Of a stretch of DNA of 36,365 bases, positions 5,954 through 35,555 are shown in pieces (the stretch's first letter is position 1; every line of letters starts with the position of its first letter). The notes beneath the pieces were generated by a model that was given only the letters and a program-made list of their open reading frames with translations, had not been told where the DNA came from and ran no database searches. Location of the stretch: the NCBI GenBank assembly GCA_015056585.1, contig SVFZ01000046.1, positions 1-36,365 of the forward strand, read 5' to 3'. Position numbers and translations under genes: made by a program. Source of the stretch: Butyrivibrio sp. Its GTDB lineage: Bacteria > Bacillota > Clostridia > Lachnospirales > Lachnospiraceae.

Positions 5954-5955
5954 GA

Positions 5956-16978: not shown

Positions 16979-17806
16979 TTACTCTTTTACGCTACCAGCA
17001 GAAATACTGTTGATGATGTATTTTGAACAGAAGCAGAAAACAATAATGATAGGCACAACTGAGATTGCGACGCCAAGGTAGATCGCTCCCTGGTTCTTTT
17101 GCAGATCAGTTGCTGCATTTAAAGTAGATATCATAACAGGAAGTGTCATTTTCTTGGGTGTGTTAAGGAGAATGAGCGGAACCAGATAGGAGTTCCAGTT
17201 GCCGATGAATGCTCCGATTGACATGGTTGCAATTCCCGGTGCCATAATAGGCAGTACTATCCTGTGGAAAATATGTATCTCAGATGCGCCATCAATTCTT
17301 GCCGCTTCCAAAAGCGCTTTGGAAAGTGTGGCCTGAACGTACTGCCTGAGGAAAAATACAATTCCCGGAGCAGCAATTGCAGGAATGATAAGGGGTATAT
17401 ATGAATCAATAAGGTGCAGCTTCTGGCACAGATTGTAAAAACCAATGAGGGAGAGCTGACCGGGTATCATCATGAATATAACAATTATCTTGAACAAAAG
17501 GTTATTCCCCTTCCACTCATACATTGCCATTCCAAAGGCTGTGATAGCTGAGAAATAGGCTGTGAGGAGAGTTGCCGGGACAGCGACTTTAACGCTGTTG
17601 AAGAACCCAAGGAAAAGATTGACATAGTCAAATAGTACTTTCCAGTTATCCCTAAGGCTCTTTCCCGGCAGAAAGGAAAATGAGTGAGTTATCTCAACTC
17701 CGGAACGTGTGGCATTTACGATCATAAGCCAGAAGGGAAGAAGACACATAAGAGCCAGCACAATAAGTGCAATATATAAAACAACTTTTTTTACCTTATT
17801 AAGCAT
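16979..17806 (-). CDS. CUT1 sugar ABC permease (MalG/LplC type)
   Basis: 275 residues with six hydrophobic helices. The permease loop EAARIDGASEIHIFHRIVLPIMAPG (about 180-204) is the characteristic EAA motif of the second permease of carbohydrate importers. Family role: with its partner it forms the transmembrane channel for an oligosaccharide. It starts 5 bp after the partner permease stop. The energising ATPase is not in the window; CUT1 systems in Firmicutes commonly share a genome-encoded MsmX-type ATPase. Confidence 0.92.
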   Translation of the reverse strand: MLNKVKKVVLYIALIVLALMCLLPFWLMIVNATRSGVEITHSFSFLPGKSLRDNWKVLFDYVNLFLGFFNSVKVAVPATLLTAYFSAITAFGMAMYEWKGNNLLFKIIVIFMMIPGQLSLIGFYNLCQKLHLIDSYIPLIIPAIAAPGIVFFLRQYVQATLSKALLEAARIDGASEIHIFHRIVLPIMAPGIATMSIGAFIGNWNSYLVPLILLNTPKKMTLPVMISTLNAATDLQKNQGAIYLGVAISVVPIIIVFCFCSKYIINSISAGSVKE

Positions 17807-17811
17807 GATCT

Positions 17812-18729
17812 TTAGTCCTCCTTTCCACCTATGAACTTAAATTCCATCACAGATACAAACAAAATTATAAAGAACAGGACGTAGGCAATTGCTGATGCAA
17901 AGCCGACCTGACGAGTTTCAAATCCAAATTTGTAAAGATACATTACTACGGTCTGCAGTGTTCCTCCGGGTTCGCCTGCAGTTGATGGTCCGCCTGCTCC
18001 GTTCATAAGAAACGGCAGGTCAAAGAGCTGAAGGCCACCGATAAGTGATGTTACAGCCACATACAGAAGGATCGGGCGCAAAAGAGGAAGTGTTATGCTT
18101 CCGAATACTTTCCATCTTCCGGCACCGTCTATAGCCGCTGCTTCAAAGTAATCGCCGGGTATTCCCTGAACACCGGCCATTAAAATGATAAAAGAGTTAC
18201 CAAACCACATCCAGGCCTGGATTACAGAGATTACTCCCCAGGCTGTGGATCTTTGTCCAAGCCAGTTTACCTGCTCCGAGACAATTCCTGATGCAAGCAG
18301 GATCTGGTTAAAGGTTCCGTATTTCCAGTCAAGAAGTGTCTTAAACAGGAAAGCTACGGAAGTTGCTGCTATTAAGTTGGGCAGATAATAAACAGCCCTG
18401 AAAATTGCCAGTCCTCTTATCTTGTACTTGATATCACTAAATACAATAGTTAAAAGAAATGCCAGTCCAAGCTGAAGAACTATGTTAAGGGACCACATTC
18501 TAACGGTGTTAAGCAATGAACGCCAGAAAAATTTGTCTTTTACCACCCTTATATAATTGGCAAGCCCCGTAAACTCAGGTTCTCCATATCCCTTATAGGT
18601 CGTAAAGCTAAGGTAAAGCGTCCTAAAAACGGGATAAACACTAAAGATGAGGAATACTATCACAAAGGGCAGGACAAACAGATAAGCTGCATTGTTCCTG
18701 TTCTTCTTTTTCTTACCTACTGCTCTCAT
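17812..18729 (-). CDS. CUT1 sugar ABC permease (MalF/UgpA type)
   Basis: 305 residues from ATG 18729; the frame opens with a TTG at 18741 that overlaps the GGGAGGG ribosome site, so the ATG is preferred. A lysine-rich cytoplasmic N-terminus is followed by six hydrophobic helices. The EAA loop EAAAIDGAGRWKVFGSITLPLLRPI lies around residues 197-221. Family role: first permease subunit of an oligosaccharide importer. It follows the binding-protein gene after about 100 bp that hold a strong hairpin, and is coupled to the second permease. Confidence 0.92.
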   Translation of the reverse strand: MRAVGKKKKNRNNAAYLFVLPFVIVFLIFSVYPVFRTLYLSFTTYKGYGEPEFTGLANYIRVVKDKFFWRSLLNTVRMWSLNIVLQLGLAFLLTIVFSDIKYKIRGLAIFRAVYYLPNLIAATSVAFLFKTLLDWKYGTFNQILLASGIVSEQVNWLGQRSTAWGVISVIQAWMWFGNSFIILMAGVQGIPGDYFEAAAIDGAGRWKVFGSITLPLLRPILLYVAVTSLIGGLQLFDLPFLMNGAGGPSTAGEPGGTLQTVVMYLYKFGFETRQVGFASAIAYVLFFIILFVSVMEFKFIGGKED

Positions 18730-18746
18730 TTTCCCTCCCAATTATT

Positions 18747-18780
18747 ACAGGGCGCTGCTTTAGTTGTGGCAGCGCCCTGT
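18747..18780 (-). promoter_or_regulatory. Intercistronic stem-loop between binding-protein and permease genes
   Basis: A perfect, GC-rich 12-bp stem (ACAGGGCGCTGC at 18747-18758 with GCAGCGCCCTGT at 18769-18780, 10-nt loop) with no T-run after it. It sits 49 bp after the binding-protein stop and just before the permease ribosome site. Such elements commonly protect the upstream message or damp downstream translation, giving more binding protein than permease. Confidence 0.6.
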
Positions 18781-18829
18781 ACCAACTCGTAATTATATTT
18801 ATAAAATGTTTTTTGCCATCAGCGCCCGA

Positions 18830-20254
18830 TTATCTCTCGATAGTGATCTCAGGATAGGTTGACTCAACTACATCATAGAACTCACTGATTGCTGTTTCCT
18901 TGTCTGCTTCGCCGGTCTTTACTGCTGTGCAGGCTGCTCCCCATGCATCGTTGATGATCTTGTCATAGCGAGTTACCTTTGAATAGTCAATGCCTGCTGC
19001 CTGCTCCTGCCAGAAGGAATACAGATGCTGTCCACCGTATACAGCGTTCTCATCATCCTTGTGCTTCTCAAGAACAGATACCAGTGAAACTGTGTCGCCT
19101 TCGGACTTTTCAATCCACCATTCAGCTGTGTTCTCATCAAGGGTTACCCACTTAAGGAAATCCCATGCCAGATCCTTGTGCTCAGACATTGCTGAAATGC
19201 CTATGAAAGTTCCCCCTCCGAAACCGTAGGCAGGGCCTGAGCAAACGCCCCACTTGCCTGATGTTTCACCAACATTATCTCTAAGTGTAAGTACTCCCCA
19301 GCTTGGAAGACCAAAAGCAAATACTTCTGTTTTATCAAGATCCTTGGTAGCCTCTGCAAAGCCTTCTGCATCCCATACGTTGATTGAATCGTCAGCATAG
19401 CTCTGAACTTCTGCTGTAAGGATTGGAACTGAACCTGCCATAGCCTGATACCACGGTGTAGACCACTGGTTAGCATATGCTGTAAGGTCGTTCTGATAAA
19501 GGTTAACCACAAGGTCCATGTAATCAAGACGAGCCTTGTCGAGGTTGAGCTTGTTATCTACAACCCATGCACTGTCTCCTGAGAAGTATCCCATCTCAGC
19601 GTCTGATGCAAAGATACGATAGCCGTTTGCTTTAAGCTTCTCAGCTGTATCAAGAATTGTTGGGTAGTCTTTAAAGAGTTTTCCGATCTCGTCAGGATCA
19701 TCTGTGCCGAATACTGTCTCTGCAATGTCTCTTCTGTAGTAGATTCCTGCAGGAGTGATCTGATAAGAGATTGCTCTCTGGATTCCCTCTGCGTCCTGTC
19801 CTACTTCCCAAACATAATCAACAATCTGGTCCTTGTAGTCCTGTGCATTGTATGGCGCCTGGTTAAGGTCCTCAAAATATCCTGCATCATAGAAGTCCTC
19901 AAGCATCTGAGGCTCACCTACGATGATATCCGGTGTTGTCTGTCCGCCGTTAAGTGCTGTCTGAACCTTTGTAACATAGTCTGCAGGTTCGATAACTACA
20001 GTCTCAATCTGAACATCGTGATCTTCTACATACTTCTCTGCGAAGGTCTGCAGGTCTTTTGCCAGTGTCCAGATAACCAGCTTTTCGCCGCTGGTACCAA
20101 CGGATTCTGTATTTGTGTTTTCAGCACTCTCAGCAGTATCTGCAGTCTCGGTGGATGTAGATGCTGTAGCACTGCTGCCATCGCTTCCGCATGCTGCAAG
20201 TGAAAGTGTCATAGCACCTGCAAGTATGCTTGCCATTGCCTTTTTAAATCTCAT
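18830..20254 (-). CDS. Sugar-binding lipoprotein of CUT1 importer
   Basis: 474 residues from ATG 20254; an in-frame TTG at 20272 overlaps the GGAGGGAGGA site and is rejected. Signal peptide MRFKKAMAS... with lipobox LAAC (Cys22), then a Ser/Thr/Ala/Glu-rich linker of about 40 residues. The mature domain is SBP family 1 (TALNGGQTTPDIIVGEP, YRRDIAETVFG, GFGGGTFIGISAMSEHKDLAWDFLKWVT). Family role: extracellular capture of an oligosaccharide for the permeases that follow. First gene of the importer transcript; no convincing -35 box is visible upstream, which fits an activator-dependent promoter. Substrate rhamnogalacturonan fragments is an inference from the neighbouring giant enzyme. Confidence 0.92.
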   Translation of the reverse strand: MRFKKAMASILAGAMTLSLAACGSDGSSATASTSTETADTAESAENTNTESVGTSGEKLVIWTLAKDLQTFAEKYVEDHDVQIETVVIEPADYVTKVQTALNGGQTTPDIIVGEPQMLEDFYDAGYFEDLNQAPYNAQDYKDQIVDYVWEVGQDAEGIQRAISYQITPAGIYYRRDIAETVFGTDDPDEIGKLFKDYPTILDTAEKLKANGYRIFASDAEMGYFSGDSAWVVDNKLNLDKARLDYMDLVVNLYQNDLTAYANQWSTPWYQAMAGSVPILTAEVQSYADDSINVWDAEGFAEATKDLDKTEVFAFGLPSWGVLTLRDNVGETSGKWGVCSGPAYGFGGGTFIGISAMSEHKDLAWDFLKWVTLDENTAEWWIEKSEGDTVSLVSVLEKHKDDENAVYGGQHLYSFWQEQAAGIDYSKVTRYDKIINDAWGAACTAVKTGEADKETAISEFYDVVESTYPEITIER

Positions 20255-20322
20255 AACTTGTCCTCCCTCCAATTACATATTGGTTACTTGTTATGAGCTT
20301 ATTTTAGGTTTGCGCAGAAAAT

Positions 20323-20446: not shown

Positions 20447-21985
20447 TTATCCTTGCAGTCCCTTATCTGTAAGGGTATAGGTCTTGGTGCATACTTCATC
20501 AATATATTTCCTGTCATGCGAAATACTGATCACTGCACCGGGAAAGGAGGCTATCATCTTCCTGATAACAGGTCCTGAAAGAGGCGAAAAATTTCTTGTA
20601 GGTTCGTCCAATATAAGGACATTTGCGTCTGAGAGACTCATCTTCAGCAGTAACACCTTCGCCTTCTGTCCGCCCGATAACTCTCTTATAGGATGGTCCA
20701 TTTCCTCCGCAGTGTATTTCAATGACCCGAGATACGTCCTGATGCGGGTACGTACACTCTTGTCCCCTGTGTCATCCAAAAATTCCACAGGAGTTACGTC
20801 AAGATTAAGAAGTTCCTCGTAGTTCTGCGGCATGTACTGAGCTTTTATATCTTTTCTGGAAAGCAGTTCCTCTGCCATCCGCTTAAGAAGTGTTGTCTTT
20901 CCGGCTCCGTTTGTACCTACAATGCAGATTTTCTCAGGTCCCCTGACTCTTAAAAAAATATCTTTTGCAAGTACCCTTGTTCCGTCAGGAGTCTTAAGCT
21001 CATCAAGTTTGTACTCAATAACCGTCTTACCAGCCGGCATTTGGGCGCTGTCATTTCCCAATTTGAAAAAGATTGCTTCCTCTTGCTCGGGCATTTTAGT
21101 CATGTTCTCATCTTCTTTTTCAAACCGCTTACCCATGGCCTTTACAGTGTGCATCTTATCTTTGAGGTTTTTTGCCACTGAATCTCGCGCTCCTTTGGAT
21201 ATATTGGTAAGTGCATGATCTACGCTGTTGTAAACTCTTGCGTATTTTTCATCACGACGCTTTTTCTCTTTCCTGTCGTTAATAGCCTGCTGCTCCTGCC
21301 TTTCGAAGTTCTCCGCTCTTCTTTCGATATAGTTTCTGTAATTATCCTTTACAACTGTGTATCTGCTCTTGGTCTTCCGCATGATCTGTTCGATGTGGAT
21401 TATCACGTTGGCCGTGTTCTCAATAAGAGTTTCATCATGGGATATAAAAAGAACTATGTGCTTCCATCCGTTAATGAGTTTCTCCAGGAGTTCTAAGGTG
21501 CTTATATCAATATCATTTGATGGTTCGTCCAAAAGCAGTACCGTAGGTTTATCCATCAAAAGCCGCATCAGCTGTGCTTTAACCTTCTCCCCGCCTGAAA
21601 GGCTTCCCATGTTCTGATCACTGTAAAAGAAATCTGCCGGCACCTGAAATTCCGCAGCCATTTCAGATAACTCTTTGGGATTCTTATCGTAAAAGAGCTG
21701 TGCCTGTGAGAAATATTCGTAAAGTGTTTTTGTTCTATCAGTTTCAGGTAGTTCCTGAGGAAGATATCCCAGCACCTCTTTGGCAGTTACTCTTTCCCCT
21801 TCACATTCCGTATACTCTGCAGCAAGTTCCGGATCATAGATCCATTTCATCAGAGTAGACTTACCATTCCCCTCTTCTCCGATGATTACCGCTTTATCTC
21901 CATCATTTAGTACCACGCTGAACTTTTCCAATATAATTCGCAGGTCGCCCCGATGTGTTATAGTTAAATCTTTAATCTGAAGCAT
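20447..21985 (-). CDS. ABC-F family ATPase (ribosome-protection / translation factor type)
   Basis: 512 residues from ATG 21985, preceded by AGGAGG; the frame is open 24 codons further but that part runs through the attenuator. There are two ABC domains and no membrane segment. Domain 1 has Walker A GEEGNGKST, signature LSGGEKVKA and LLLDEPSNDID. The basic linker of about residues 215-320 is the P-site tRNA-interaction region of ABC-F proteins. Domain 2 has Walker A GTNGAGKTT, signature LSGGQKAKV and an unusual LILDEPTRNFSPLS in place of the standard DEPTNHLD. Family role: binds the ribosome E site to relieve antibiotic or peptide stalling. The attenuator in front favours a resistance-type ABC-F. 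Its position inside the pectin locus appears coincidental. Confidence 0.85.
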   Translation of the reverse strand: MLQIKDLTITHRGDLRIILEKFSVVLNDGDKAVIIGEEGNGKSTLMKWIYDPELAAEYTECEGERVTAKEVLGYLPQELPETDRTKTLYEYFSQAQLFYDKNPKELSEMAAEFQVPADFFYSDQNMGSLSGGEKVKAQLMRLLMDKPTVLLLDEPSNDIDISTLELLEKLINGWKHIVLFISHDETLIENTANVIIHIEQIMRKTKSRYTVVKDNYRNYIERRAENFERQEQQAINDRKEKKRRDEKYARVYNSVDHALTNISKGARDSVAKNLKDKMHTVKAMGKRFEKEDENMTKMPEQEEAIFFKLGNDSAQMPAGKTVIEYKLDELKTPDGTRVLAKDIFLRVRGPEKICIVGTNGAGKTTLLKRMAEELLSRKDIKAQYMPQNYEELLNLDVTPVEFLDDTGDKSVRTRIRTYLGSLKYTAEEMDHPIRELSGGQKAKVLLLKMSLSDANVLILDEPTRNFSPLSGPVIRKMIASFPGAVISISHDRKYIDEVCTKTYTLTDKGLQG

Positions 21986-22017
21986 ATATCGCCCTCCTGT
22001 TCTGCTGCAATAATAGC

Positions 22018-22050
22018 AAAAAAGCCTATTCTGCATACGCAAAATAGACT
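22018..22050 (-). promoter_or_regulatory. Transcription attenuator in the ABC-F leader
   Basis: On the minus strand a 12-bp stem with two G-U pairs (22039-22050 with 22023-22034, loop of 4) is followed by six T (22018-22023 overlap). It ends 20 nt before the AGGAGG of the ABC-F gene. The upstream giant gene already has its own terminator at 22283-22311, so this one belongs to the ABC-F 5' leader. A second copy of GTCTATTT (about 22058-22065) upstream could pair with the 3' arm as an antiterminator. Confidence 0.7.
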
Positions 22051-22081
22051 CACACAAATAGACCTACTATGAACAGTCAGG

Positions 22082-22282: not shown

Positions 22283-22311
22283 TAAAAAGCCCCCACCCAA
22301 AACAGGTGGGG
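22283..22311 (-). terminator. Intrinsic terminator of the giant RG-lyase gene
   Basis: Minus strand CCCCACC (22305-22311) pairs with GGTGGGG (22291-22297), followed by GCTTTTT. It starts 10 bp beyond the stop codon. Confidence 0.85.
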
Positions 22312-22320
22312 ACTCATATT

Positions 22321-25300
22321 TTACCATCTTCCGAAGATGGATCGCTTTGCTATAAATGCGCCGGTGGTTTCATCGAAGTGGTAGACATTAAAGAGTATCC
22401 ATACGATACCTCTCTGAACTACTCCACCGATTGCAAAGTACTGTACACCGTCAACAGTGAACCAGCCTGTGGTTGCTTTGCCGCTCTTCTCATTGAAGTG
22501 ATACAAAAGCTCTACGCCTCCAATGTTGATGTTAGTAAAGCCTTTCACCATGGCATGGGTCTGAGGATTGAAGTAATAGGTTCCAAACAGTGTGATAAGG
22601 AATCCATCGTGGATTATGTGGTTGAAGTCCGCATAATACTGCGCACCGTCTACACTAAAGGATCCTCTTACTGCCTTACCGTTTGAGCCAAAGTAGTAGG
22701 TCTTGCCTTTTACTGTGACAAAGCCTGTCTGCATTACACCAAGATCGTCTGCATCCTCGCTAAAGTAGTACAGGTTAGAGCGACTACTCATAAGTCCTGT
22801 CTGCGCCACACCATTCTTAGCATAATAGGTTCCCTCAGCCTCAGTTACAAAGCCATTTGCCAGCTTGTCTCCGTTTTTGTAAAAGACCTTGTTGCCTTCG
22901 GAATCTACTTCATAGTATGCATTGACATGCACGTTGATAAGCATTACTGCTTCGTTACAGGTCTCAGTCTCTTTTGCTGTTACTGTGATGATGGCATCAC
23001 CTGTTGAAACAAGGTTCAGTGTTCCATCCTCTGAAACTGTTACAACCTCCTCATTTGATGATGCATATGTAAGTGCGCCATCGCCTGAAGTTACGGCATT
23101 AAGCACATAGTTATTTCTTGCAAGGCTTAAGTTGTAGCTTGCTGTTCCGGTGATCTGCTGATCTACCTTAGGTACAACCACCTCTTTTGCCCTGATAATG
23201 ATAGCTCCCATACGGCTTGTGGTTGAGCCATCAAAGGTAAATGTAAGCTGTCCGTCTGTAACCTCTACATCTGAAAGAACTGCCCAGCTGTAGGTTCCTG
23301 CTGCATTGGAAACATTGTAGCTTATACCCTCTACTGCTCCCTTAACATTGCTCTTGTATACTGAGTTTGAAAGAACTTCTACCTGATATGTACCGTTCTT
23401 TACGTCAACCCAGAACTCCTGTCCTGCAGGAAGTGCAAAGTCTGTGTAAACATTTGCATCCAGTGCTCCCTCATAGGTAAATCCTTCGGATCTTCCCTGA
23501 GTGAACTGCTCATCATCGCTAAAGCCCCAGCCTTTTTCTGCTGTGTAGAAGCTGCCGAGCTCTGAAAGCTTTGTGGTTCCGTTCTTGGGATTAACTGTTA
23601 CTTCTGTCCAGCCTTCAGCGCTTGCGCCGGCCTTGATACCAAAATCAAACTTGTAAAGTGCCTGATAATCAACTGTGACTGTGAGGTTTGCGACTATCGT
23701 GCTGTTCTCGATGGCACCTGTTGTCTTGTAGGTTCCTACAGTATTTACATCTATTCCTGCAACGTCCCATACTACCGGAATGTCTTTTACGCTGCCACTC
23801 TTGAATGTAGCGCTTACAGTCTGTGGAAGCTTGCCGGAAGCATCGCCATCGCCAAGAACAATCTCTGCGAAGCTGTCTGCAACTGCTACCACATAGTCCT
23901 CAACAACATTAACTGTAAGTGTAATCTCAGCTTCTGCGTCATTTTCAACAGTTCCCGGAATCTCATAAACACCGACAACCGTTGTATCAAGTGCAGTTGT
24001 ATCCCATGTTACTTTCACATCATTACTTGTTCCGTTGAGGAATGTTGCCTTAACTGTTTCAGGCAGCTTAGCCTCCTGACCCTGAATTACTTCTACCGCA
24101 TCGAGCTGTGCATAGCCTGTAGCCTTGTTAGCCACAACGGTTACTGTAACTTCTACAGGGTTTGAATCATAGCCTCTTACATTTGCGTAAGCCTTGTATG
24201 TTCCAACGTTCTCAATATCAACTTCGTCAGCCTCGTAGCTTACTGAAACGGTCTGTGTCTTGCCATCAGCGTCTTTTACCTTAACAGTTCCTATGTTGGC
24301 CTTAAGAAGATCTGCTACTGTCTGTCCCTCTGCAAGAGGTGTGTCCTCAACCAGCTGCTGGTTCTGTAGTGCCTGTAACTGGTCAGCATCAATTGATGCG
24401 ATTGCAACAGTTGTAAGAACTGAGAGAGGGAGTGACTTATAACTTGTCTTACCATCTACAATTGCTGCTACCTTGTAAAGGTATGTTGTGTTTCCATCAA
24501 CAGTATCATCTACGTATGAGAATACTGTGTCAGCCGAAACTCCGGCTCCGTCCAAAGCACCACCTTGAGCTCCACTCTGTGCAGCCTCATACTCAGCAAG
24601 AGCCTCATCATAGTTTGCCGTCTTAATCTCAAAGCCTGTGAAGTACATTGCTGCATAGCCGTTCTTGGTAACTGTGTTAACAAGATTAAGCTTGCCGTCC
24701 GTAACTTCTACAGTCTGTGTTTCAGAGTAAGTGATCTTATCTGAATTACCATGTCTGAAGTCCGCAAACTCCACGCCCTCAGCTGTAAGCTTCTGGTAGG
24801 AAGCACCTGATCCGTTGTAGATATACTGTGTTACTTCATAGCTTCCGTTTGGAACATCAACAACAAATTCCGCAGTTCCGTTTGAAATCCATGCAAGAGC
24901 TGAATCATAGTAAAGATCGCTCTCTTCGCTATCAAGTGCTCCATAGGTCTTGTTTGAAATTGAAGAAACATCGCTAAATCCATAGCCCAGTTCTTCGCTG
25001 TACTCTGTAGATGCTGATACTGCTGTCCATCCGTCCTGAGTATTGCCTGCGCCGAAGTCAAACTTGTAATCAACAGGCTTTGTAACTGCCCCTTCACCGT
25101 CTGAACCGGTAGCTGTTCCTGCACCGGACTCACTCTTTGCCACCTGATCAAACTCTGCTACATCCTTGGAAGCAATAACCTCATACTCGCCTGCATTTCC
25201 TGTTTCATCAGCTATAGATCTGTAAATCACATATCCTGTGATCTCATGTCCAAAAAGTGCACCGTCATTAGCTGGTGTGAACTGAAGCTCAACAGATGAA

Positions 25301-28300
25301 GAGCTGACTTCTCCGGCTGAAAGAGCTGCAGTGATAAGTCCGTTAGATATAAGGTAACTTGTGTGTGCCGGCTGGTTGTAGCCAACGTTCTGCCATGCAA
25401 CACCCTCTCTGTACGCAAGATCTGTCAAAAGACAAGGAATCACATAGTCTGTCTGAATAGTAGTTGAATATACTCTGATCCTGCTATTGTCTCCTGCACA
25501 TCTTGCAATAATCTCCTCTCTCCAGTCGCCCAGGATATCAGCCACAAGTCCGAGATTTCCTTTAGTTCCGTTGCTGGTAAGAACCTGGCTTGACTCAAAG
25601 AGATTTACATTCTGTCCCTTCTCGTAATCCCATTTCTCAATGGTTGTTGTAAGCGGCGCATAAGCACCTGAATCAAAGGTATGATCCTGCATCTCTGCAA
25701 GGAGATCTCCATCCCAGTAAATTGAGAAGTTACTTGGAGGTGTTGCACCTTCATTTACTGTGATCATCGAGCTTCCTGAAGCATCGTTTGAATCATAGAT
25801 TCCTGAAAGAGATGAGAATACGTTTGCTGTTCTGGTATCCCATGAAGGCTCATCGGAACCGGTGTATGCAGGGTTTGCGATTGACCAGTACTCTGCTCCC
25901 TCGTATCTTGGGTCGATATCTGATGCAACGCCACGTCCTGTGTCTTTTCCCGTGTAGTAACCTGTGAGGATCTGACCTGTCTCAGCATCGTGGATTTCTA
26001 CATGGTATGCTGCATCGTCGTGCTCGTGGACATCCATTATTTCCAGTCCGTCTCGGCTTGGAACCCAGTCGCCAACGTGCTCTGCATCGCCGTGTCCGAG
26101 ACCTGTGCTGTAGAGAACCGAACCGTCGTTATCTACTGTAAGTGAACCGTAGATGATCTCGTCGCAGCCATCGCCGTCAACATCGTTAACAGCCAGTGCG
26201 TGGTTACCCTGCCCCTCATACTGAGCGCCTGCATTTAATGTATCAAACTGCCAGTAAACACCGATTGACTGTGTGCCGTCATCAGCAGTTGAAAGGTAAT
26301 ATGCTGTAAGGCATGTTCTTGTGTAGTAACCTCTTGCGAATACTGCAAAAGGAGTTGTTCCATTAAGGTATGCTGTGCCTGAGAGGAATCTGTCCACTCT
26401 GTTTCCGTAGGCATCGCCCCATGCAGATACAGAACCTCTTCCCGGAAGGTACTCAACAGTGTCGATTATGCTGCCGTCTTCACCGTTAAACATTGAGAAG
26501 TACTCAGGTCCATCAAGGACATATCCTGAGGAATTTCTATAGTCATTTTCAGATGCTATGGAAGCGGTATCGAGAGCTGCCATACTGCATGCACCAACAA
26601 ATCCCGTCTCATTCAGGTTGGCATCATAGGTTGTTGTTCCGTCTGCAGTCTTAACTGCGATCTCAGCCTTTCCGTCCGCATCGTAGTCCCATACCTGGAA
26701 CTGTGTGTAGTGCGCACCGGATCTGATGTTGATACCAAGATCGATTCTCCACATCAGTACAGCGCTTCCTGTTGCAAAATTGATGTCATAAGCATCAAGG
26801 AAGGTTGTTCCTGTGTAGCCTGAACCCGAGTTGTCTTTTGCATTACTTGGGTACCACTTAACAATGAGCTCAAGGTCTCCATCTCCGTTGAGGTCGCCCA
26901 CTGACATATCGTTAGCAGTGTAAGAAGCTGAGCTTCCATCAGGCATTGTCTGGTCTGAAGGCCTGTTCAACTTAAACTCCTGATACTGGTTGCTCCAAAC
27001 AGCTGTTGAAACAGAAGAAAGTCCAAGTGCTCCGTCATTAGAGCCTACGACTGTGTAGGTGTCAGATGCGCTTCCGCCCTCATCCACGCAGTTGGTAACC
27101 TTAAGGCCTTCTGCAATGGCTGCGCCATTTCTGTATACGGTAAAAGAGCTTGTGACATTTCCATTACTGTCGAGATCTTCGTCAAATGCTCTCCAGCTGA
27201 GATATACACCACTTGTAATCTCTTTTCCCTCAGCATCGGTTGCGCTGACTTTAGTCTCCGCACCTGCTCCGCCTGCCAGGTTGATTGCTACAAGTGCTCT
27301 TGATGAATAGTGCTCAAGTCCGCCTGCAACCAAGTTTCCTACAACCGGTGTGATGCATACATCTGACATCTCACCAAGTCCGCCTGCGTTCAGGGCTGCA
27401 ACCTTGTAGTAATAATGAATGTTTGTGTAAACTGTATCATCTGTATATGCTGTTGTCTTGGACTCACCGATCTTCTCATAGCCCTTGAATGCCTTGTCGC
27501 TCTCGGGCTTCTGTGAACGATAGATGATGTACTTAATAACATTCTCTGATGTAGGGTTTGCATCCCACTTAAGTTCTACATAATGCTGAAGCTCTGTCTG
27601 TCCTGCCTCAGGGCTTACACATACAAGATTAAGAGGGGCTGCCGGAACTTGTACACTCTCATCCAGCATTGACTGTGTTACCACGTTACTTGCAGGAGAC
27701 TCAACTCCCTCGGAGTTTGTGCAGGTCATGTAGTAGCTGTATGTTTCGCCCAGGTCAGCTACCATCGCACGACAGTCAAGCTCACTGTCAAGAAGCTCCT
27801 GTGCTGTAAATGTCTTAACAACGCTAAACTCAGCATCGCTCTCGGACTTCCTGTAAACTGTGTAGCTTGCCGCATCATCAACTGTTCCGAATGAAAGCAG
27901 GAAGTTTGCTGTTGATGCTGTAAAGCTAAGCTCAGTAATTGCAAGGTTAGAAGGTGCTGTAAGAAGGCTTGTAATTGTAAGACCGTTTATGTAGTTGTTT
28001 GATCCGCCAACGGTAATATTGAGCTGACCATCTGTTACAGCCACTGTTCCCGTGCAGCTTGCAAGTGCCTGCTTGGTTGCTATTGAACCAAATGTCACTC
28101 CTTCCGCATTGTAAGAAACCTTAATAGTGCTGGTTCCCGGAAGAAGGTCACATGCATAAACAGTAACTTCGTAAGAGCCGTTTGGAAGATCCACTGCAAA
28201 TTCGCCTGCTCCCAGGTTGAAGTCATCAGCCATGTCTGAAGCATCTTTATTGCCGTTTCCACTTCTGTATCTTCCATTTCCCGGAGCTGTTATCCAGCCA

Positions 28301-30627
28301 TAGCCCTTTTCTGCGTCGTAGGCCTGATTCTGGTTAACACCTGTCCACCCCTCCATAGTAGGAGAGTCATTGTAGTTAAAATCGAACTTAAGGCCTGCTT
28401 CCTTGGTTGATACAACAATAGCGTCGGAAAGCTCACCTGTTCCAAAGCTGTTCCAGGCTGCTACTGCATAAACATAAGTAACACCTGAGTTACAACCCGG
28501 ATCTGTGTACTTTGTCTTTGTGGAAACAGAATACTTTGTTGCATTGCCAAAATCTACATCTTCTGCATTCTGTCCATCCTCAAGCTCTGCGCGGTAGATA
28601 TAGTACATCTCTGCGCCTTTAGCCTCTGACCATGAAAGTGAAACGCTTGTTGAACCTACCGCTGTGCTCTCGAGATTTGTAACTTTCTCAGGAGCCTCTG
28701 TCGATGCGTTTATCTCAACAAGTCCTGCAAGTAAATCCAGCTGGTCGTTAAAGCCAAGTGCATACTCGTTATCTGCCTCGTCTGCAAAATCAAGAATTCC
28801 CTGCGCAACTGCCTGAGAGAACTTATATGCACCGTACCACTGAAGGTGAGTTGCATCAGAAGATCCGCCTGTATATGCGCCTTCTGAGTAATCTCCCGCT
28901 TCCACTCCGCACAGGAAAAGAGCCTTCGCTCCCTCTGCGCCGAAGTCCTCACAGATATCGCCTGAACGTGCTGTAAGATCAATGAGTGGTATGTCATGCT
29001 CTGAAGCAAGTGAAAGCATAACCTGACGATAAGCCTCAAAATTGCTTGCCCATGTAACAGTTCCATCGCCATTATCTGTATAGCTGTATCTTGCAACAGG
29101 TGTTACAAGTACCGGTGTAGCACCTCTCTGATAAGCTCCGTCAACATACTGCATTATGTAGCTGCCAAAATCGCTGCTTGATACATAACGATTAGGTCTT
29201 GAGGAAGTAGCATCGTTGTGTCCCCACTGGATAAAGAGGTAGTCACCCTTTTTTATGTCCTCAAGGATATCCTCCAGCTTTCCTTCCTGAATATAACTGC
29301 TTGATGAACGTCCGCCAATGGCTCTGTTCTCAACGATCACGTTAGCAGTCTCATAAACCTGAGACTGTGAAAAGTCAGCATTATCTGCCTCCCTCTCTTC
29401 AACAAACTCGCCGAACCAGTCGCTGAATGTCTGGCCCCAGCCTGTCTGAGGGTAGTAGTATGTATCATAAGTCTGGACGGTTGAATCGGATGCTATGTAA
29501 ATAGTCGGCTTTGATTCTGCCTCCTGAGTCTTAAGTCTTGTGATCTTAACCTCAGATACATAAACATTGTTTGTTCCCGCATCACCTATAGCAGTCGCAG
29601 AACTTGCTACAAGGAATTTAAGATTGAGCTGTCCGTCAACAAGGTTTGTCTCAAAGGTCACTGTCTGGGAAGATCCGCCGCCAACGTTTATCTCGGTCTT
29701 CTGAGTGATATCCTCAGCTTCAAGATAAGCCGTGTATGCCGAATCATCAGGGTTGGTCAAAACCACCTCAACCTGATAGTCCGCATTGTAAAGATCCACA
29801 TTAAAGGTTGATGTGTTCTCGTATGTATAAACACCATAACCGGTGCTCTCAGTCTCAGTCCATACCTTGCTTGCGATGCCAGCATATGAGCCTTCATCGG
29901 TCACATAGCTTGCGCTATCTGAAGTCACATTGGCAACCCTTGGGTAGTAAACCGATCCCGACCAGCCCACCGGATCTGTGTTATAATCTACGTCACTAAA
30001 TCCATAGCCTTTGTCCTCTGAGTAGACATTTGCAGAGGAAATACCATTTTCTGTTCCAAAGAAAAAGTCTGCTACTACTGTATCTTCTGTAAAGTTCTCG
30101 TACCCATCTTCTCCCTGATCGATTGATGGTACCGGAGCAGAAGCTGCTCTGAGCAGGCTTGCCGAAGACTTAGTCTTTTCCTTTAGAATGTCTTCTGAAG
30201 CTTCTGTAGTGGCTGAATCTGCAGCGTCTGCCTCTTCGTCGATTTCATTTTCCGCGTCTTCTTCTGCCTTTTCCTCGCTGTCTTTTTCCTCGGAAGCATC
30301 TTCAGAGCTGTTTCCTGCCCCTGCGCCGGACTCGTCTGATGGTAACTCTGATGAAGCTTCGCTTGCTGCTGAACTTTCTTTCTCAGTGCTGTCTTCTGCT
30401 GCAGATGAAGATTCAGATGATACACTTGCTTCTGCAGATGCCTCTACTGAAGCTTCTGCTAAAGGCACTTCTGCCGGCACATCTTCTGCCGCATAGGACT
30501 TAACAGACGAATATGCAAATATGCTGGAAACTGTCAGCGATATACTTGTTGCAAAGGCAATTGCCCTTACAAGGCTGTTCTTTCGTCCGAAAGAGCCATG
30601 CATATTCTTGGTTCTTTTGTTCCCCAT
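22321..30627 (-). CDS. Giant secreted rhamnogalacturonan acetylesterase / PL11 rhamnogalacturonan lyase
   Basis: 2768 residues; ATG follows AGGAGG. Order of parts: signal peptide (1 to about 47); acidic Ser/Ala/Glu linker (50-180); beta-sandwich module M1 (183-365); SGNH rhamnogalacturonan acetylesterase (373-615); FN3 (645-741); module M2 (745-890); two FN3 (891-985, 995-1095); PL11 lyase (1098-1762); FN3 interrupted by module M3 (1763-2072, insert 1851-2004); three Big_4-like Ig domains (2075-2165, 2174-2243, 2245-2319); module M4 (2323-2480); Big_2-like domain (2487-2568); cell-wall-binding repeats (2570-2768). Modules M2-M4 share a KFDFG/KFDFN opening, a GYGF/GWGF turn, DVPNGSYEV and VTDGKLN motifs and look like galactose-binding-fold carbohydrate modules. 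Role: removes acetyl groups from and then cleaves the RG-I pectin backbone at the cell surface. No sortase signal; attachment is through the repeats. Expression is probably controlled by the YesMN-like pair in the same locus. Confidence 0.92.
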   Translation of the reverse strand: MGNKRTKNMHGSFGRKNSLVRAIAFATSISLTVSSIFAYSSVKSYAAEDVPAEVPLAEASVEASAEASVSSESSSAAEDSTEKESSAASEASSELPSDESGAGAGNSSEDASEEKDSEEKAEEDAENEIDEEADAADSATTEASEDILKEKTKSSASLLRAASAPVPSIDQGEDGYENFTEDTVVADFFFGTENGISSANVYSEDKGYGFSDVDYNTDPVGWSGSVYYPRVANVTSDSASYVTDEGSYAGIASKVWTETESTGYGVYTYENTSTFNVDLYNADYQVEVVLTNPDDSAYTAYLEAEDITQKTEINVGGGSSQTVTFETNLVDGQLNLKFLVASSATAIGDAGTNNVYVSEVKITRLKTQEAESKPTIYIASDSTVQTYDTYYYPQTGWGQTFSDWFGEFVEEREADNADFSQSQVYETANVIVENRAIGGRSSSSYIQEGKLEDILEDIKKGDYLFIQWGHNDATSSRPNRYVSSSDFGSYIMQYVDGAYQRGATPVLVTPVARYSYTDNGDGTVTWASNFEAYRQVMLSLASEHDIPLIDLTARSGDICEDFGAEGAKALFLCGVEAGDYSEGAYTGGSSDATHLQWYGAYKFSQAVAQGILDFADEADNEYALGFNDQLDLLAGLVEINASTEAPEKVTNLESTAVGSTSVSLSWSEAKGAEMYYIYRAELEDGQNAEDVDFGNATKYSVSTKTKYTDPGCNSGVTYVYAVAAWNSFGTGELSDAIVVSTKEAGLKFDFNYNDSPTMEGWTGVNQNQAYDAEKGYGWITAPGNGRYRSGNGNKDASDMADDFNLGAGEFAVDLPNGSYEVTVYACDLLPGTSTIKVSYNAEGVTFGSIATKQALASCTGTVAVTDGQLNITVGGSNNYINGLTITSLLTAPSNLAITELSFTASTANFLLSFGTVDDAASYTVYRKSESDAEFSVVKTFTAQELLDSELDCRAMVADLGETYSYYMTCTNSEGVESPASNVVTQSMLDESVQVPAAPLNLVCVSPEAGQTELQHYVELKWDANPTSENVIKYIIYRSQKPESDKAFKGYEKIGESKTTAYTDDTVYTNIHYYYKVAALNAGGLGEMSDVCITPVVGNLVAGGLEHYSSRALVAINLAGGAGAETKVSATDAEGKEITSGVYLSWRAFDEDLDSNGNVTSSFTVYRNGAAIAEGLKVTNCVDEGGSASDTYTVVGSNDGALGLSSVSTAVWSNQYQEFKLNRPSDQTMPDGSSASYTANDMSVGDLNGDGDLELIVKWYPSNAKDNSGSGYTGTTFLDAYDINFATGSAVLMWRIDLGINIRSGAHYTQFQVWDYDADGKAEIAVKTADGTTTYDANLNETGFVGACSMAALDTASIASENDYRNSSGYVLDGPEYFSMFNGEDGSIIDTVEYLPGRGSVSAWGDAYGNRVDRFLSGTAYLNGTTPFAVFARGYYTRTCLTAYYLSTADDGTQSIGVYWQFDTLNAGAQYEGQGNHALAVNDVDGDGCDEIIYGSLTVDNDGSVLYSTGLGHGDAEHVGDWVPSRDGLEIMDVHEHDDAAYHVEIHDAETGQILTGYYTGKDTGRGVASDIDPRYEGAEYWSIANPAYTGSDEPSWDTRTANVFSSLSGIYDSNDASGSSMITVNEGATPPSNFSIYWDGDLLAEMQDHTFDSGAYAPLTTTIEKWDYEKGQNVNLFESSQVLTSNGTKGNLGLVADILGDWREEIIARCAGDNSRIRVYSTTIQTDYVIPCLLTDLAYREGVAWQNVGYNQPAHTSYLISNGLITAALSAGEVSSSSVELQFTPANDGALFGHEITGYVIYRSIADETGNAGEYEVIASKDVAEFDQVAKSESGAGTATGSDGEGAVTKPVDYKFDFGAGNTQDGWTAVSASTEYSEELGYGFSDVSSISNKTYGALDSEESDLYYDSALAWISNGTAEFVVDVPNGSYEVTQYIYNGSGASYQKLTAEGVEFADFRHGNSDKITYSETQTVEVTDGKLNLVNTVTKNGYAAMYFTGFEIKTANYDEALAEYEAAQSGAQGGALDGAGVSADTVFSYVDDTVDGNTTYLYKVAAIVDGKTSYKSLPLSVLTTVAIASIDADQLQALQNQQLVEDTPLAEGQTVADLLKANIGTVKVKDADGKTQTVSVSYEADEVDIENVGTYKAYANVRGYDSNPVEVTVTVVANKATGYAQLDAVEVIQGQEAKLPETVKATFLNGTSNDVKVTWDTTALDTTVVGVYEIPGTVENDAEAEITLTVNVVEDYVVAVADSFAEIVLGDGDASGKLPQTVSATFKSGSVKDIPVVWDVAGIDVNTVGTYKTTGAIENSTIVANLTVTVDYQALYKFDFGIKAGASAEGWTEVTVNPKNGTTKLSELGSFYTAEKGWGFSDDEQFTQGRSEGFTYEGALDANVYTDFALPAGQEFWVDVKNGTYQVEVLSNSVYKSNVKGAVEGISYNVSNAAGTYSWAVLSDVEVTDGQLTFTFDGSTTSRMGAIIIRAKEVVVPKVDQQITGTASYNLSLARNNYVLNAVTSGDGALTYASSNEEVVTVSEDGTLNLVSTGDAIITVTAKETETCNEAVMLINVHVNAYYEVDSEGNKVFYKNGDKLANGFVTEAEGTYYAKNGVAQTGLMSSRSNLYYFSEDADDLGVMQTGFVTVKGKTYYFGSNGKAVRGSFSVDGAQYYADFNHIIHDGFLITLFGTYYFNPQTHAMVKGFTNINIGGVELLYHFNEKSGKATTGWFTVDGVQYFAIGGVVQRGIVWILFNVYHFDETTGAFIAKRSIFGRW
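22324..22920 (-). other. Domain: C-terminal cell-wall-binding repeats (residues 2570-2768)
   Basis: About eight to ten aromatic repeats of roughly 20 residues (patterns such as GKTYYFGSNGKAVRG, VDGAQYYADFNH, LFGTYYFNPQTHAMVKGF) typical of choline-/glucan-type cell-wall-binding repeats. They would keep the enzyme on the producer's surface. The last repeats are degenerate (IVWILFNVYHFD) and the protein ends in RSIFGRW. Confidence 0.8.
25342..27336 (-). other. Domain: PL11 rhamnogalacturonan lyase (residues 1098-1762)
   Basis: About 665 residues covering a whole PL11 enzyme. Repeated calcium-binding loops of the beta-propeller are visible (VGDLNGDGDLELIVKW, VWDYDADGKAEIAVK, VNDVDGDGCDEIIYG, ADILGDWREEIIAR), plus GQGNHALAV, GLGHGDAEHVGDW and QPAHTSYLI near the end. 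Family role: eliminative cleavage of the alpha-1,4 bond between rhamnose and galacturonate of RG-I; calcium is required in B. subtilis YesW/YesX. Confidence 0.93.
28783..29511 (-). other. Domain: SGNH rhamnogalacturonan acetylesterase (residues 373-615)
   Basis: All SGNH blocks are present: nucleophile S382 in IASDSTV (block I, GDS written as SDS), oxyanion Gly in RAIGGRSS (436-442), Asn471 in WGHND, and D591/H594 in SDATHLQ. The TYYPQTGWGQ after block I is typical of the RGAE/YesT group. It hydrolyses acetyl esters on galacturonate of RG-I. The first block has Ser instead of Gly before the catalytic DS, as in several bacterial RGAEs. Confidence 0.88.
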
Positions 30628-30820
30628 TTCGTTTACCCTCCTCCTTTATGTCACTCCCCCTCATAGCATCTTACTGCACTATTACGAAATTCACCCTTTT
30701 CGTATCGGAGAAAACCGCTATTTGTGACAAATTTTATTATATTTTGTTAAAGATTTTATAAATTTTTCATATAGTCAGCAATTCATTTAGAAGATAACAC
30801 TGTGCAAATTCAACCCATTA

Positions 30821-31704: not shown

Positions 31705-32349
31705 TCAAATTTTCGCTTTACCGTCAAACACTTCTATACCGTACTTTAAAAGGTCTACTTTTCCGTCCATAACTTCTACTCCCTCTTTTCTAAGGAGTTT
31801 TTCCTGAACGCCTTCACCAAATGCGAAGTTCCCGGATAGCTCTCCTTTCGAATTTACCACACGGAAGCATGGAATATTATCCGGATCAGGGTTTTTATGA
31901 AGAGCATTTCCAACAGCCCTGGACATCCTTGCATTTCCTGCCATCTCAGCGATCTGACCATATGTGGCCACATGTCCTTTCGGAATTCTTTTAACCGCTT
32001 CATAAATTCTCTTTGTTGGCGAGTCGGTAATAAGGTCGTAGCTAATTGCGATCATTTTTTTGACTTCTTCATCCGGTATTGAGCCGTCCAAAATGATAGT
32101 GTTCCAGTGCTCTTTGTTCTGATGATATGCCGGAACCACTGAATCATAAGCTCTTCTCCACAGATCTCTCCAATCGGGATCCACTTTCACATTCAGATTA
32201 ATAAATCCGTCTTTTTCATAAGTCCACAAAAAGGCTTTCTTACAGCCTTTTACTCTTACCAGTTGCCAGTTCTGCTCTCTAAACGGCGCTTCCAGGTATG
32301 TGTCCGGAAAAGACAAACCATAGTCCAGTGCTTCCTGTCTCGTCTTCAT
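31705..32349 (-). CDS. YjbR/MmcQ domain fused to an MGMT-like alkyltransferase domain
   Basis: 214 residues from ATG 32349 (AGAGGA five bases before); a GTG at 32385 is an alternative. Residues 1 to about 107 are a YjbR/MmcQ domain (CyaY-like fold; FREQNWQLVRVK, NLNVKVDPDWRDLWR, HWNTIILDGSIPDEEV). Residues about 112-195 are the C-terminal DNA-binding domain of O6-alkylguanine-DNA alkyltransferase: IPKGHVATYGQIAEMAG, arginine finger R143 (SRAVGNAL), active-site motif IPCFRVV with acceptor C161, and E189 in LLRKEGV. The usual PCHRV histidine is Phe162. So the acceptor Cys and Glu persist but the base that activates Cys is lost. Either weak alkyl transfer or an alkyl-sensing role as in ATL proteins. 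I use no symbol because function is unsettled. Confidence 0.85.
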   Translation of the reverse strand: MKTRQEALDYGLSFPDTYLEAPFREQNWQLVRVKGCKKAFLWTYEKDGFINLNVKVDPDWRDLWRRAYDSVVPAYHQNKEHWNTIILDGSIPDEEVKKMIAISYDLITDSPTKRIYEAVKRIPKGHVATYGQIAEMAGNARMSRAVGNALHKNPDPDNIPCFRVVNSKGELSGNFAFGEGVQEKLLRKEGVEVMDGKVDLLKYGIEVFDGKAKI

Positions 32350-32475
32350 GTATTCCTCTTTTGCTTTTTCCGCCAACAATTGCACACTTATTCTGGAACC
32401 CTCAGGTGCATTTTTTATTCATGATATAGATGTCAAAAGTCGTAGATACATACATGCCTGCATGTTAACATCCGC

Positions 32476-34209
32476 TTAAATCCCGCCAAGCTGCATGGTA
32501 TAGTACTTTTCGTAAAGGCCGCCTTTTTTGATAAGTTCCTTGTGATTGCCTCTCTCACGGATACCGTCCTCGTCGAGTACTATGATCTCATCTGCCCCTA
32601 GGATCGTCGAAAGTCTATGGGCTATTGTTATGGTCGTTCTTCCGTGGGAAAGCTTGTCAAGGCTCTCCTGGATGTATCGTTCGCTCTCATTATCAAGGGC
32701 GCTGGTTGCCTCATCAAGTATAAGAATAGGCGGATTTTTCAGGAAGACTCTGGCAATAGCTATTCTCTGCTTCTGTCCTCCGGAAAGTCTTGCACCTCTC
32801 TCTCCCACCCATGTGTCAAAGCCATTTGGAAGGCTCTCTATGAATTCCGTAAGGTCCGCGTCATCTGCTGCCTTCCGGATTTCCTCCATGGTGGCGTCAG
32901 GTTTGCCGTAAGCAATATTCTCTCTGACAGTTCCGTTAAAAAGGTATACGTCCTGCTGAACTATTCCAATAAAGGAGCGAAGTGATTTCTGAGTCACATC
33001 TCTTATGTCGGTTCCGTCTATTTTTACAGCACCTTCCGTAACATCGTAGAATCTTGGAAGCAGTGAACAAAGTGTAGTCTTTCCTCCGCCCGAAGGTCCA
33101 ACGATAGCCACAGATTTACCCGCATCAACGTGAAGATCGATGTGGCTAAGTACCGACTCATTGTTTTCATAGGAAAAAGAGACATCCTCATAGTCAATGA
33201 CGCCACGGACGTCCTTGAGCTCTTTTGCCTCAGCCTTGTCTACTATGGCAGGCTTTGTGTCAATTACTTCAATAAATCTCTCAAAGCCTGCAAGGCCCTT
33301 CTGAAGCTGCTCGGTAAATTCAACAAGGACATTTACGGGGCCGATAAAGATGTTGATATAAAGAGCATAAATTGCCAGTTCCTCTCCTGAGAGCTTCCCC
33401 TTTGCTATAAAAAAGCCTCCTGCCACTAAGACTGTTATGAACATGAGGCCTTCAAAGAAGCTGTTTCCCGAATTGAATATGCCCATCCGCCTGTAGTTAG
33501 CTCTTTTGGAATCAAGAAAGGCTATGTTGCTTCCGGTAAATTTCTCCTGTTCTATCTCTTCACCGGTAAAAGATTTAACGACTCTGATACCGCCAAGTGT
33601 ATCCTGAAGTGAAGAATTGATGCCCGCAATCTTTTTCCTGTTGTCACTGAAAGTCGCTCTCATCTTTTTGTTCTGAACAACAGCAAAGCAGGCCATCAGA
33701 ATTACTACCACCACAAGGCACAGTGTCATCGGAACATTGATACGAAGCAGGAGAATCAAAGATCCCACTATCTTGATCACGGAAATGAAGATGTTCTCCG
33801 GACCATGGTGAGCCAGCTCTGATATGTCGAAGAGATCAGAGACGAGCTTGCTCATCATTTCGCCTGTATTATGGGTGTCATAATAGGAAAAAGAAAATTC
33901 TTCGAACTTATCAAACAGTTCTTTTCTCATGCCCGATTCCATGCGGGCTCCCATCATATGTCCCTGATATGTCACATACCATCTGCAAAAAGATCTGACT
34001 GCATACAGAAGAAAAAGTATTAAGGCGATGATTCCCAGTCTCTTCAGGATAACCTCAGGCGCTTCAAGAAATAATGAACTGCGAAGGATCCTCAGAAACT
34101 GTGGAAACGCAAGATCGATCACCGACAAAATTGTCGCGAATAACAAATCCAGGAAAAACACTCCCAGATATGGTTTGTAATATGGTATAAATCTTTTTAT
34201 AAGTTGCAT
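32476..34209 (-). CDS. ABC exporter half-transporter (MsbA/LmrA type)
   Basis: 577 residues from ATG 34209 (AAGAGG seven bases before); the upstream open frame to 34254 lies inside the MATE gene. Six-helix transmembrane domain (about 1-315), then the ATPase domain: Walker A GPSGGGKTT, Q-loop IVQQDVYLFNGTV, signature LSGGQKQR, Walker B ILILDEATSALD, H-loop IAHRLST. Family role: dimeric exporter of lipids, drugs or peptides. It overlaps the MATE gene stop by 13 bp, so two efflux proteins are translationally coupled. A homodimer is expected because no second half-transporter is nearby. Confidence 0.93.
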   Translation of the reverse strand: MQLIKRFIPYYKPYLGVFFLDLLFATILSVIDLAFPQFLRILRSSLFLEAPEVILKRLGIIALILFLLYAVRSFCRWYVTYQGHMMGARMESGMRKELFDKFEEFSFSYYDTHNTGEMMSKLVSDLFDISELAHHGPENIFISVIKIVGSLILLLRINVPMTLCLVVVVILMACFAVVQNKKMRATFSDNRKKIAGINSSLQDTLGGIRVVKSFTGEEIEQEKFTGSNIAFLDSKRANYRRMGIFNSGNSFFEGLMFITVLVAGGFFIAKGKLSGEELAIYALYINIFIGPVNVLVEFTEQLQKGLAGFERFIEVIDTKPAIVDKAEAKELKDVRGVIDYEDVSFSYENNESVLSHIDLHVDAGKSVAIVGPSGGGKTTLCSLLPRFYDVTEGAVKIDGTDIRDVTQKSLRSFIGIVQQDVYLFNGTVRENIAYGKPDATMEEIRKAADDADLTEFIESLPNGFDTWVGERGARLSGGQKQRIAIARVFLKNPPILILDEATSALDNESERYIQESLDKLSHGRTTITIAHRLSTILGADEIIVLDEDGIRERGNHKELIKKGGLYEKYYTMQLGGI

Positions 34210-35555
34210 GGAATACCTCTTGTTGTAATAAAATATGTAATTATCAAAATGCAATCAGCAAGTGCCCAGGCACAGATTTCCCCAAAATAGATACCATAAT
34301 ATCCTATGATACGAGTTAAGAAAATCGCGCAGGCCACCCTCATTATCAGCTGTGCAAAGCTTGAAAGCATAGGAATTATGCTGTTTCCCATACCCTGCAA
34401 GGTTGATCTGACAATATACAAAATGTAGAGAAGCGGGAAAAATGCAGCCAGTACCTGCAGATAATTGTATCCATATGAAAATACCTTGGCGTTTGCAGTC
34501 CCTGTATCTATGAATAGTTTCATCAAAGGCTGCCCAAAAATGATCATCACCACAGAACATGAAAGAGCCGTTATAATACCAAGCAGTACGCTTACTTTTA
34601 CTCCGCTGCGTACACGTTCATAATCTTTTGCCCCCATATTCTGTGAAACATATGCAACTACAGCTAATCCATAAGAAGATGCTGCAATCTCAAGAAGTGC
34701 ATATATTTTTCCTGCTATGGTATATCCGGTGAGAAAAGAGAGCTCATACTGATTGATCCTATTGATGACGATAAGACCACCTATTGCAGTGATCACACTC
34801 TGAAGCGCCATTGGAAGGCCAATTGTCATCAGCTCTTTTACCACGGTAAATCCGCTCTTTAATCCGGAGCTCTTTGCGGAAGTCGCATCAGAAATGCCCT
34901 GCCTGTTTTTATATACGTTATAACCACAGATAAGCATAACTAGGCATTCCGAAAGGATTGTACCGAGAGCCGCTCCTCCTATCCCCATATTCAGGGCGCT
35001 TACAAACAATATGTCCAAAACAATGTTGCACAGTGAGGAAACAGTCATAGCCATAAGATGAATTTTGCTATTCCCTCTGCTCCTCAAAACCGCAGCAAAA
35101 AGCTGATAAAAAATAAGAAAAGGAAGCCCTGCAAATATGACATCAACGTAGGTTTTAGCAAAAGAGAACACCTCATCTTTTGTATCAAGCACTCTTAGTA
35201 CAAATCCGGAAGTGCCAAGTAAAAGCGCCACCAGAGATATTGCTAACCCGAAACAGATTGCCTTAGCCTTTTTATAGTACTGAGAGAAAGCAGCTTCGTC
35301 TTTTTCCCCATACTTATTACCCAATAAAACTGAAAATCCCTGGATTAAGCCTATGACAAATCCATTCACCAGGAATATATACCAATCAGTTCCGCCTATG
35401 GCTGAGAGCCCTTTGGCGCCAACTTTTTGGCCTATAATGATGCTGTCTACAATAATGTAGAGCTGCTGAAAAACATTACCAACTATCAACGAAAAAGCAA
35501 AACTTAAAATCAGTGATAACGGTTTCCCCTTAGTCAGATCCCGATCTTCATTCAT
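34197..35555 (-). CDS. MATE family efflux transporter
   Basis: 452 residues from ATG 35555, nine bases after GGAGGA; the open frame to 35585 has no site. Twelve hydrophobic helices in two similar halves are visible, with the N-terminal TKGKPLSLILSFAFSLIVGNVFQQLYIIVDSIIIGQKVG typical of the DinF/NorM-like MATE group. Family role: cation-coupled export of drugs or small metabolites. Coupled to the ABC exporter gene that follows. Substrate not deducible. Confidence 0.93.
   Translation of the reverse strand: MNEDRDLTKGKPLSLILSFAFSLIVGNVFQQLYIIVDSIIIGQKVGAKGLSAIGGTDWYIFLVNGFVIGLIQGFSVLLGNKYGEKDEAAFSQYYKKAKAICFGLAISLVALLLGTSGFVLRVLDTKDEVFSFAKTYVDVIFAGLPFLIFYQLFAAVLRSRGNSKIHLMAMTVSSLCNIVLDILFVSALNMGIGGAALGTILSECLVMLICGYNVYKNRQGISDATSAKSSGLKSGFTVVKELMTIGLPMALQSVITAIGGLIVINRINQYELSFLTGYTIAGKIYALLEIAASSYGLAVVAYVSQNMGAKDYERVRSGVKVSVLLGIITALSCSVVMIIFGQPLMKLFIDTGTANAKVFSYGYNYLQVLAAFFPLLYILYIVRSTLQGMGNSIIPMLSSFAQLIMRVACAIFLTRIIGYYGIYFGEICAWALADCILIITYFITTRGIPCNL

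Follow-up and report, generated by a model that had tools for sequence, protein, structure and literature searches.

How much of the breakdown of a pectin backbone can a single bacterial protein carry, and how is such a protein put together? The question is raised by contig SVFZ01000046.1 of the Butyrivibrio sp. assembly GCA_015056585.1, analysed over a stretch of 36,365 nucleotides (the window), in which a preliminary description had placed an acetylesterase and a family PL11 lyase for rhamnogalacturonan I (RG-I) on one polypeptide. Positions 22321-30627 of the minus strand indeed form a single open reading frame (ORF), without interruption, that encodes 2768 residues, and Pfam profiles hit both enzymes within it, confirming that they are carried by one large secreted protein. 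The CE12-PL11 pairing is real, conserved and typical of a family already common in databases. The protein also has a feature that the preliminary description had missed: the fibronectin type III domain (FN3) behind the lyase is interrupted by a carbohydrate-binding module in one of its loops. Domains were called with Pfam profiles at curated cut-offs, several outer limits being set by inspection. The parts that carry these findings are as follows.

22321-30627, minus strand: whole ORF, CE12-PL11 fusion protein of 2768 residues (ORF reading and Pfam)
28786-29514, minus strand: SGNH/CE12-type esterase, residues 372-614, with S382, G438/G439, N471, D591 and H594 (Pfam, alignment, our own profile, fold)
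26995-27216, minus strand: RGI_lyase N-terminal beta-sheet domain of PL11, residues 1138-1211 (Pfam)
25330-26985, minus strand: PL11 beta-propeller (RGL11_C), residues 1215-1766 (Pfam, structure-database profiles, our own profile)
25138-25332, minus strand: first half of the split FN3, residues 1766-1830 (alignment, structure model)
24622-25080, minus strand: binding module 3, residues 1850-2002, between the C' and E strands of the split FN3 (Pfam, our own profile, structure model)
24403-24522, minus strand: second half of the split FN3, residues 2036-2075 (alignment, structure model)

Profile matches, fold and invariant residues all speak for the two catalytic assignments. In an alignment of 121 proteins, comprising the query and 120 listed relatives, all of which align across both active sites, the SGNH residues S382, G438/G439, N471, D591 and H594 are each identical in 121 of 121, with block I reading ASDS instead of GDS. 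The fold of this domain is closer to YxiM and the fungal rhamnogalacturonan acetylesterase (RGAE) than to other SGNH enzymes; these two rank on top, more than 3 Z units above the next structure, supporting a CE12-type acetylesterase. The lyase passes the curated cut-offs of both PL11 profiles, scoring 596.4 bits for RGL11_C (cut-off 27) and 39.6 bits for RGI_lyase (cut-off 27.8). PL11 enzymes bind calcium through His/His/Asp/Glu and substrate through Arg/Lys (PMC8787155). H1476, H1512, D1514, E1529/E1535, R1565 and K1689 sit in the matching motifs and are likewise identical in 121 of 121, the correspondence being placed by motif rather than by superposition, with either E1529 or E1535 as the equivalent calcium ligand. 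The lyase may be endo-acting like YesW or exo-acting like YesX, against which it scores 512 and 522 bits, respectively. Thus, the motifs that had been claimed to be retained in the esterase active site and in the calcium loops of the lyase are indeed kept.

The window corresponds to one of the 128 contigs of a draft assembly, and a sequencing error or frameshift joining two genes had been named as a possible source of the fusion. This is refuted by independent genomes. A homologue of the same length and 98% identity (P0002) lies on a different contig, a 2747-residue protein of cultured Butyrivibrio sp. NC2007 is 90% identical, and, as noted above, every listed homologue spans both active sites. 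Moreover, when species genomes were scanned with the esterase domain (88 relatives found, 79 loci returned), CE12 and PL11 were found in one ORF at 55 loci, including Lachnospiraceae, Enterococcus lemanii, Paenibacillus and Glycomyces; the two are in separate ORFs at 4 loci, CE12 lacks PL11 within the fetched stretch at 19, and one locus is cut by a contig end. An assembly artefact can therefore be ruled out, its probability being negligible. Among the fused loci, Konateibacter massiliensis has two tandem CE12-PL11 fusion genes (L041:9497-21304), the second cut at the end of the stretch. One locus titled Gastranaerophilales groups among Lachnospiraceae in the tree, and its label may reflect a binning error. 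In Streptomyces harbinensis (L085:9776-13522), CE12 with a module and PL11 occupy abutting stop-to-stop frames, neighbours that are not one ORF.

By the PL11 tree, the fusion may have arisen once or several times. This tree was built by a quick method from 104 rows, 35 fused and 69 unfused, the latter sampled from 120 listed of 7919 hits and from the loci. Fused lyases fall into two groups, one of Lachnospiraceae type and one of Paenibacillus/Glycomyces, and both also contain unfused rows. Ten changes between fused and unfused labels are counted, eight of them forced, and some of the rows labelled unfused may derive from incomplete copies of fused genes. A compact CE12-PL11 protein of 1007 residues (P0150) stands apart on a long branch and is possibly an independent fusion.

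Both halves of the interrupted domain (24403-25332, minus strand, with module 3 inside) together form one FN3, its strands C' and E being named by analogy. Insert sizes at this site, classed by our own cut-offs, fit none, one, two or three modules in 7, 58, 32 and 24 of the 121 aligned proteins, respectively. Binding-module profiles recognise one, two and three modules in 55, 16 and 22 inserts and none in 28 proteins; 7 of these 28 have no insert, and the inserts of the other 21 hold something that the profiles do not recognise. Two of the seven proteins without an insert also lack the second half of the FN3, so that five are truly uninterrupted. Among 173 fused sequences (the 121 proteins plus 52 locus ORFs, with some genes counted twice), the FN3 is split in 128, uninterrupted in 16, unclear in 10, several of which are cut at contig ends, and missing in 19. 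Robinsoniella provides a natural example of the uninterrupted form. In a lyase tree of 65 of these sequences, whose bootstrap is not quite settled, the split and unsplit forms alternate; five gains or losses are needed, three of them forced by well supported branches. On balance, the FN3 behind the lyase appears to be a natural socket, its C'-E loop being a recurrent insertion site for zero to three binding modules that are not strung end to end. While the arrangement itself is plain from the alignment and the models, its purpose may be to set the binding face relative to the lyase cleft. No description of the split FN3 was found in the excerpts of open-licence literature searched. For engineered pectinases, a loop that takes one to three modules points to a possible rule of design.

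The joining of CE12 and PL11 is already in print, in reverse order, for Ruminococcus; the split FN3 is the part for which no description was found in the literature searched. R. flavefaciens FD-1 ORF03451 is described as PL11-Doc-CBM35-CE12 (PMC2930009; 2010) and an R. albus protein as PL11-CE12-CBM13-CBM13-CBM37 (PMC4081043; 2014). Like the query, they combine both enzymes and binding modules in one polypeptide; however, the lyase comes first and a dockerin or CBM37 is present, whereas the query has the esterase first and ends in wall repeats. The four-module plan with a split FN3 was not found in the excerpts of these two descriptions, nor was a CE12-before-PL11 order found in the excerpts of open-licence literature searched. 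Since the order in Ruminococcus is opposite, nature may have joined the two activities more than once. In A. clariflavus, PL11 and CE12 are separate (PMC12037645), and B. hungatei raises PL11 gene expression on pectin (PMC6344614). Butyrivibrio fibrisolvens PmeC5, a protein of 2089 residues, combines a CE8 esterase, a PL9 lyase and YG/glucan-binding repeats (PMC12109409). It resembles the query, likely from the same genus, in uniting esterase, lyase and repeats in one large secreted protein, but it acts on homogalacturonan with other catalytic families, so that the CE12-PL11 protein parallels it. In the fold of YxiM, a binding module of the query type precedes the esterase (PMC9487903). The same fused core, at 55-90% identity, is found in proteins named 'rhamnogalacturonan lyase family protein' of Butyrivibrio sp. 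NC2007 and VCB2006, Konateibacter and Robinsoniella, which vary in the number of modules in the split FN3 and in the surface end. In B. subtilis, YesT, YesW and YesX are separate proteins. The catalytic families of YesT/YxiM (CE12-type) and YesW/YesX (PL11) are those of the query, but the B. subtilis enzymes are not known to be fused or to carry wall repeats.

The contrast with B. subtilis drawn in the preliminary description thus holds for the fusion but is incomplete, because the genome also carries separate CE12 and PL11 genes. On contig C71 (L103:531-3974), a PL26-like (PcRGLX) gene adjoins a short CE12 gene, beyond which a PL11 begins and is cut off by the contig end, and the end of contig C27 (L102:1-1863) holds the remainder of a PL11; the two pieces would belong to one gene. 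The short CE12 shows no signal peptide by inspection, and this separate set is probably intracellular. In addition, six matches above cut-off to PF07470 (GH88/GH105 family) are present in the genome.

The other carbohydrate-type modules of the preliminary description, which with module 3 make four, were recovered as well, as were its FN3 and Ig spacers and its wall repeats, mainly with Pfam profiles.

30636-30647, minus strand: ribosome-binding site AAAGGAGGAGGG (read from the sequence and graded good)
30487-30627, minus strand: signal peptide, residues 1-47, with a basic start, a hydrophobic core and an SYA/AE end (inspection only)
30118-30486, minus strand: acidic linker rich in Ser/Glu/Ala, residues 48-170 (inspection)
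29524-30084, minus strand: binding module 1 (AGA-YXIM_GBD, YxiM N-terminal type), residues 182-368 (Pfam, four stretches; our own profile; fold)
28414-28686, minus strand: fn3 domain, residues 648-738 (Pfam)
27961-28386, minus strand: binding module 2, residues 748-889 (Pfam and our own profile)
27673-27954, minus strand: FN3-like spacer, residues 892-985 (GH85_C below cut-off; limits by inspection)
27373-27660, minus strand: fn3 domain, about residues 990-1085 (inspection and homologue P0103; Pfam fn3 has two stretches)
23740-24360, minus strand: Big_4 Ig-like array, about residues 2090-2296 (Pfam, three stretches, the best at 2178-2228; limits by inspection)
23308-23736, minus strand: binding module 4, residues 2298-2440 (Pfam and our own profile)
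22966-23088, minus strand: Big_2 Ig-like domain, best stretch residues 2514-2554 (Pfam)
22324-22902, minus strand: choline-binding/wall-binding repeats, about residues 2576-2768 (Pfam and pattern; limits by inspection)
22287-22315, minus strand: intrinsic terminator-like stem immediately 3' of the gene and its own

Membership of the binding modules in the YxiM/malectin type (AGA-YXIM_GBD) follows from profile scores above cut-off and from the fold. The FN3-like spacer scores 22.5 bits for GH85_C, under the cut-off of 27, and the same profile reaches 37.4 bits, above cut-off, in homologue P0121. An Rfam scan of the window returned no matches to RNA elements.

Taken together, the reading already proposed is likely the best one: a surface-held RG-I deacetylase and lyase for the pectin backbone in a gut bacterium, with activity, binding and location as predictions. 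The protein would be exported and retained on the cell's own wall through its C-terminal choline-binding-type repeats, while its four YxiM/malectin-type modules would hold the chain by binding pectic sugars. The SGNH/CE12-type domain, with its fold and catalytic residues in place, would then strip acetyl esters off galacturonate, and the calcium-dependent PL11 propeller would cleave the freed rhamnose-galacturonate backbone by beta-elimination. The resulting unsaturated oligosaccharides could be taken up and finished by the GH88/GH105-type enzymes and the separate, probably intracellular PL26-like/CE12/PL11 set, for which the genes are present. This would be a compact example in which one probably surface-held chain performs two successive steps on the same polymer.

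Several points weigh against this reading. The GDSL Pfam score of the esterase is only just above cut-off, and its substrate therefore rests on the fold ranking and on the fusion to PL11; the two structure models are of middling confidence (predicted local distance difference test, 79.4 and 78.6). Joining is not obligatory, as CE12 is without PL11 in the fetched stretch at 19 of the 79 loci and in a separate ORF from it at 4, and the long fusion occurs in only 5 of 37 same-genus genomes, the query included, several of these genomes being incomplete. No other polysaccharide-degrading enzyme was recognised within the window, and its gene neighbourhood shows no conservation: in 18 stretches flanking the fusion genes of ten relatives, no match (at least 38% identity, E at most 1e-20) was found to any of the 23 remaining window genes. 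These stretches mostly cover at most 10 kb per side, reaching 20 kb in four genomes, such that a neighbour shared farther away would escape notice. At this E-value, the sole hits were to an ABC ATPase at 28-30% identity. Conceivably, the SGNH domain could deacetylate another target, such as homogalacturonan, xylan, mannan or an RG-I side chain, with PL11 joined to it for broad pectin clean-up. This is improbable given the lead of YxiM and the fungal RGAE in the fold ranking and the partnership of PL11 with CE12 in 55 of 79 loci across Bacillota and Actinomycetota; in addition, the best NCBIfam match is the pectin acetylesterase model PaeY, though at 53.2 bits, far under its cut-off of 1000.

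The location is a further point on which readings differ. The tail carries tandem C-terminal repeats, with 33.5 bits for Choline_bind_3 (cut-off 27), one stretch passing alone and four repeat-like units by pattern. It also matches repeats of clostridial toxins and, weakly, the glucan-binding repeats of TIGR04035 (21.8 bits; cut-off, 147.7). Related repeats in PmeC5 are labelled 'glucan-binding domain', and its authors propose that such wall-binding domains or carbohydrate-binding modules anchor the enzyme to the plant wall rather than to the cell (PMC12109409), which also speaks against surface retention. The enzyme could accordingly be secreted and substrate-bound, working free in the lumen with its repeats on plant wall or glucan. 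We consider this unlikely, although less so than another esterase target. Repeats of the same type occur on four more ORFs of the genome by profile search, one of them, an SLH protein, under cut-off; the other three are a GH10-CBM9 xylanase and two GH25 lysozymes, and it is the lysozymes that act on the bacterial cell wall. Furthermore, the genome has three LicD matches. Among the 121 aligned proteins, 27 end in wall repeats by Pfam (our regular expression found only 13). Simple patterns place a membrane helix followed by a basic tail at the end of 69 others, LysM at that of 2 and SLH at that of 1, whereas 22 show no retention element; a sortase-like TG motif is present in 23 of the 69. Most ends thus hold wall repeats or another retention element, and therefore surface retention is usual while its means vary. 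The cell tethering of the preliminary description is in line with these shared repeats and related ends, and stays a prediction from sequence.

A pectin operon around the gene was sought in the window and was not found. The nearest genes encode an ABC-F protein (20447-22057), a sugar ABC importer with a histidine kinase and an AraC-type regulator, a HAD phosphatase and others. The importer (12052-20272, minus strand) comprises two binding proteins, one of them distantly like AlgQ1/AlgQ2, and two permeases; no counterpart was found next to the fusion gene of the compared relatives, and its composition resembles that of the B. subtilis yesMNOPQ set. Positions 31705-32385 (minus strand) encode a protein in which a YjbR domain is joined to an O6-methylguanine-DNA methyltransferase domain that carries the motif PCFRVV. 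Finally, 1-6879 and 32476-35585 (minus strand) hold 3HCDH, acetate/butyrate kinase-type and phosphate acetyl/butyryl transferase genes, with an MsbA-like ABC exporter and a MATE exporter nearby; the 3HCDH, kinase-type and transferase genes would fit a butyrate producer.
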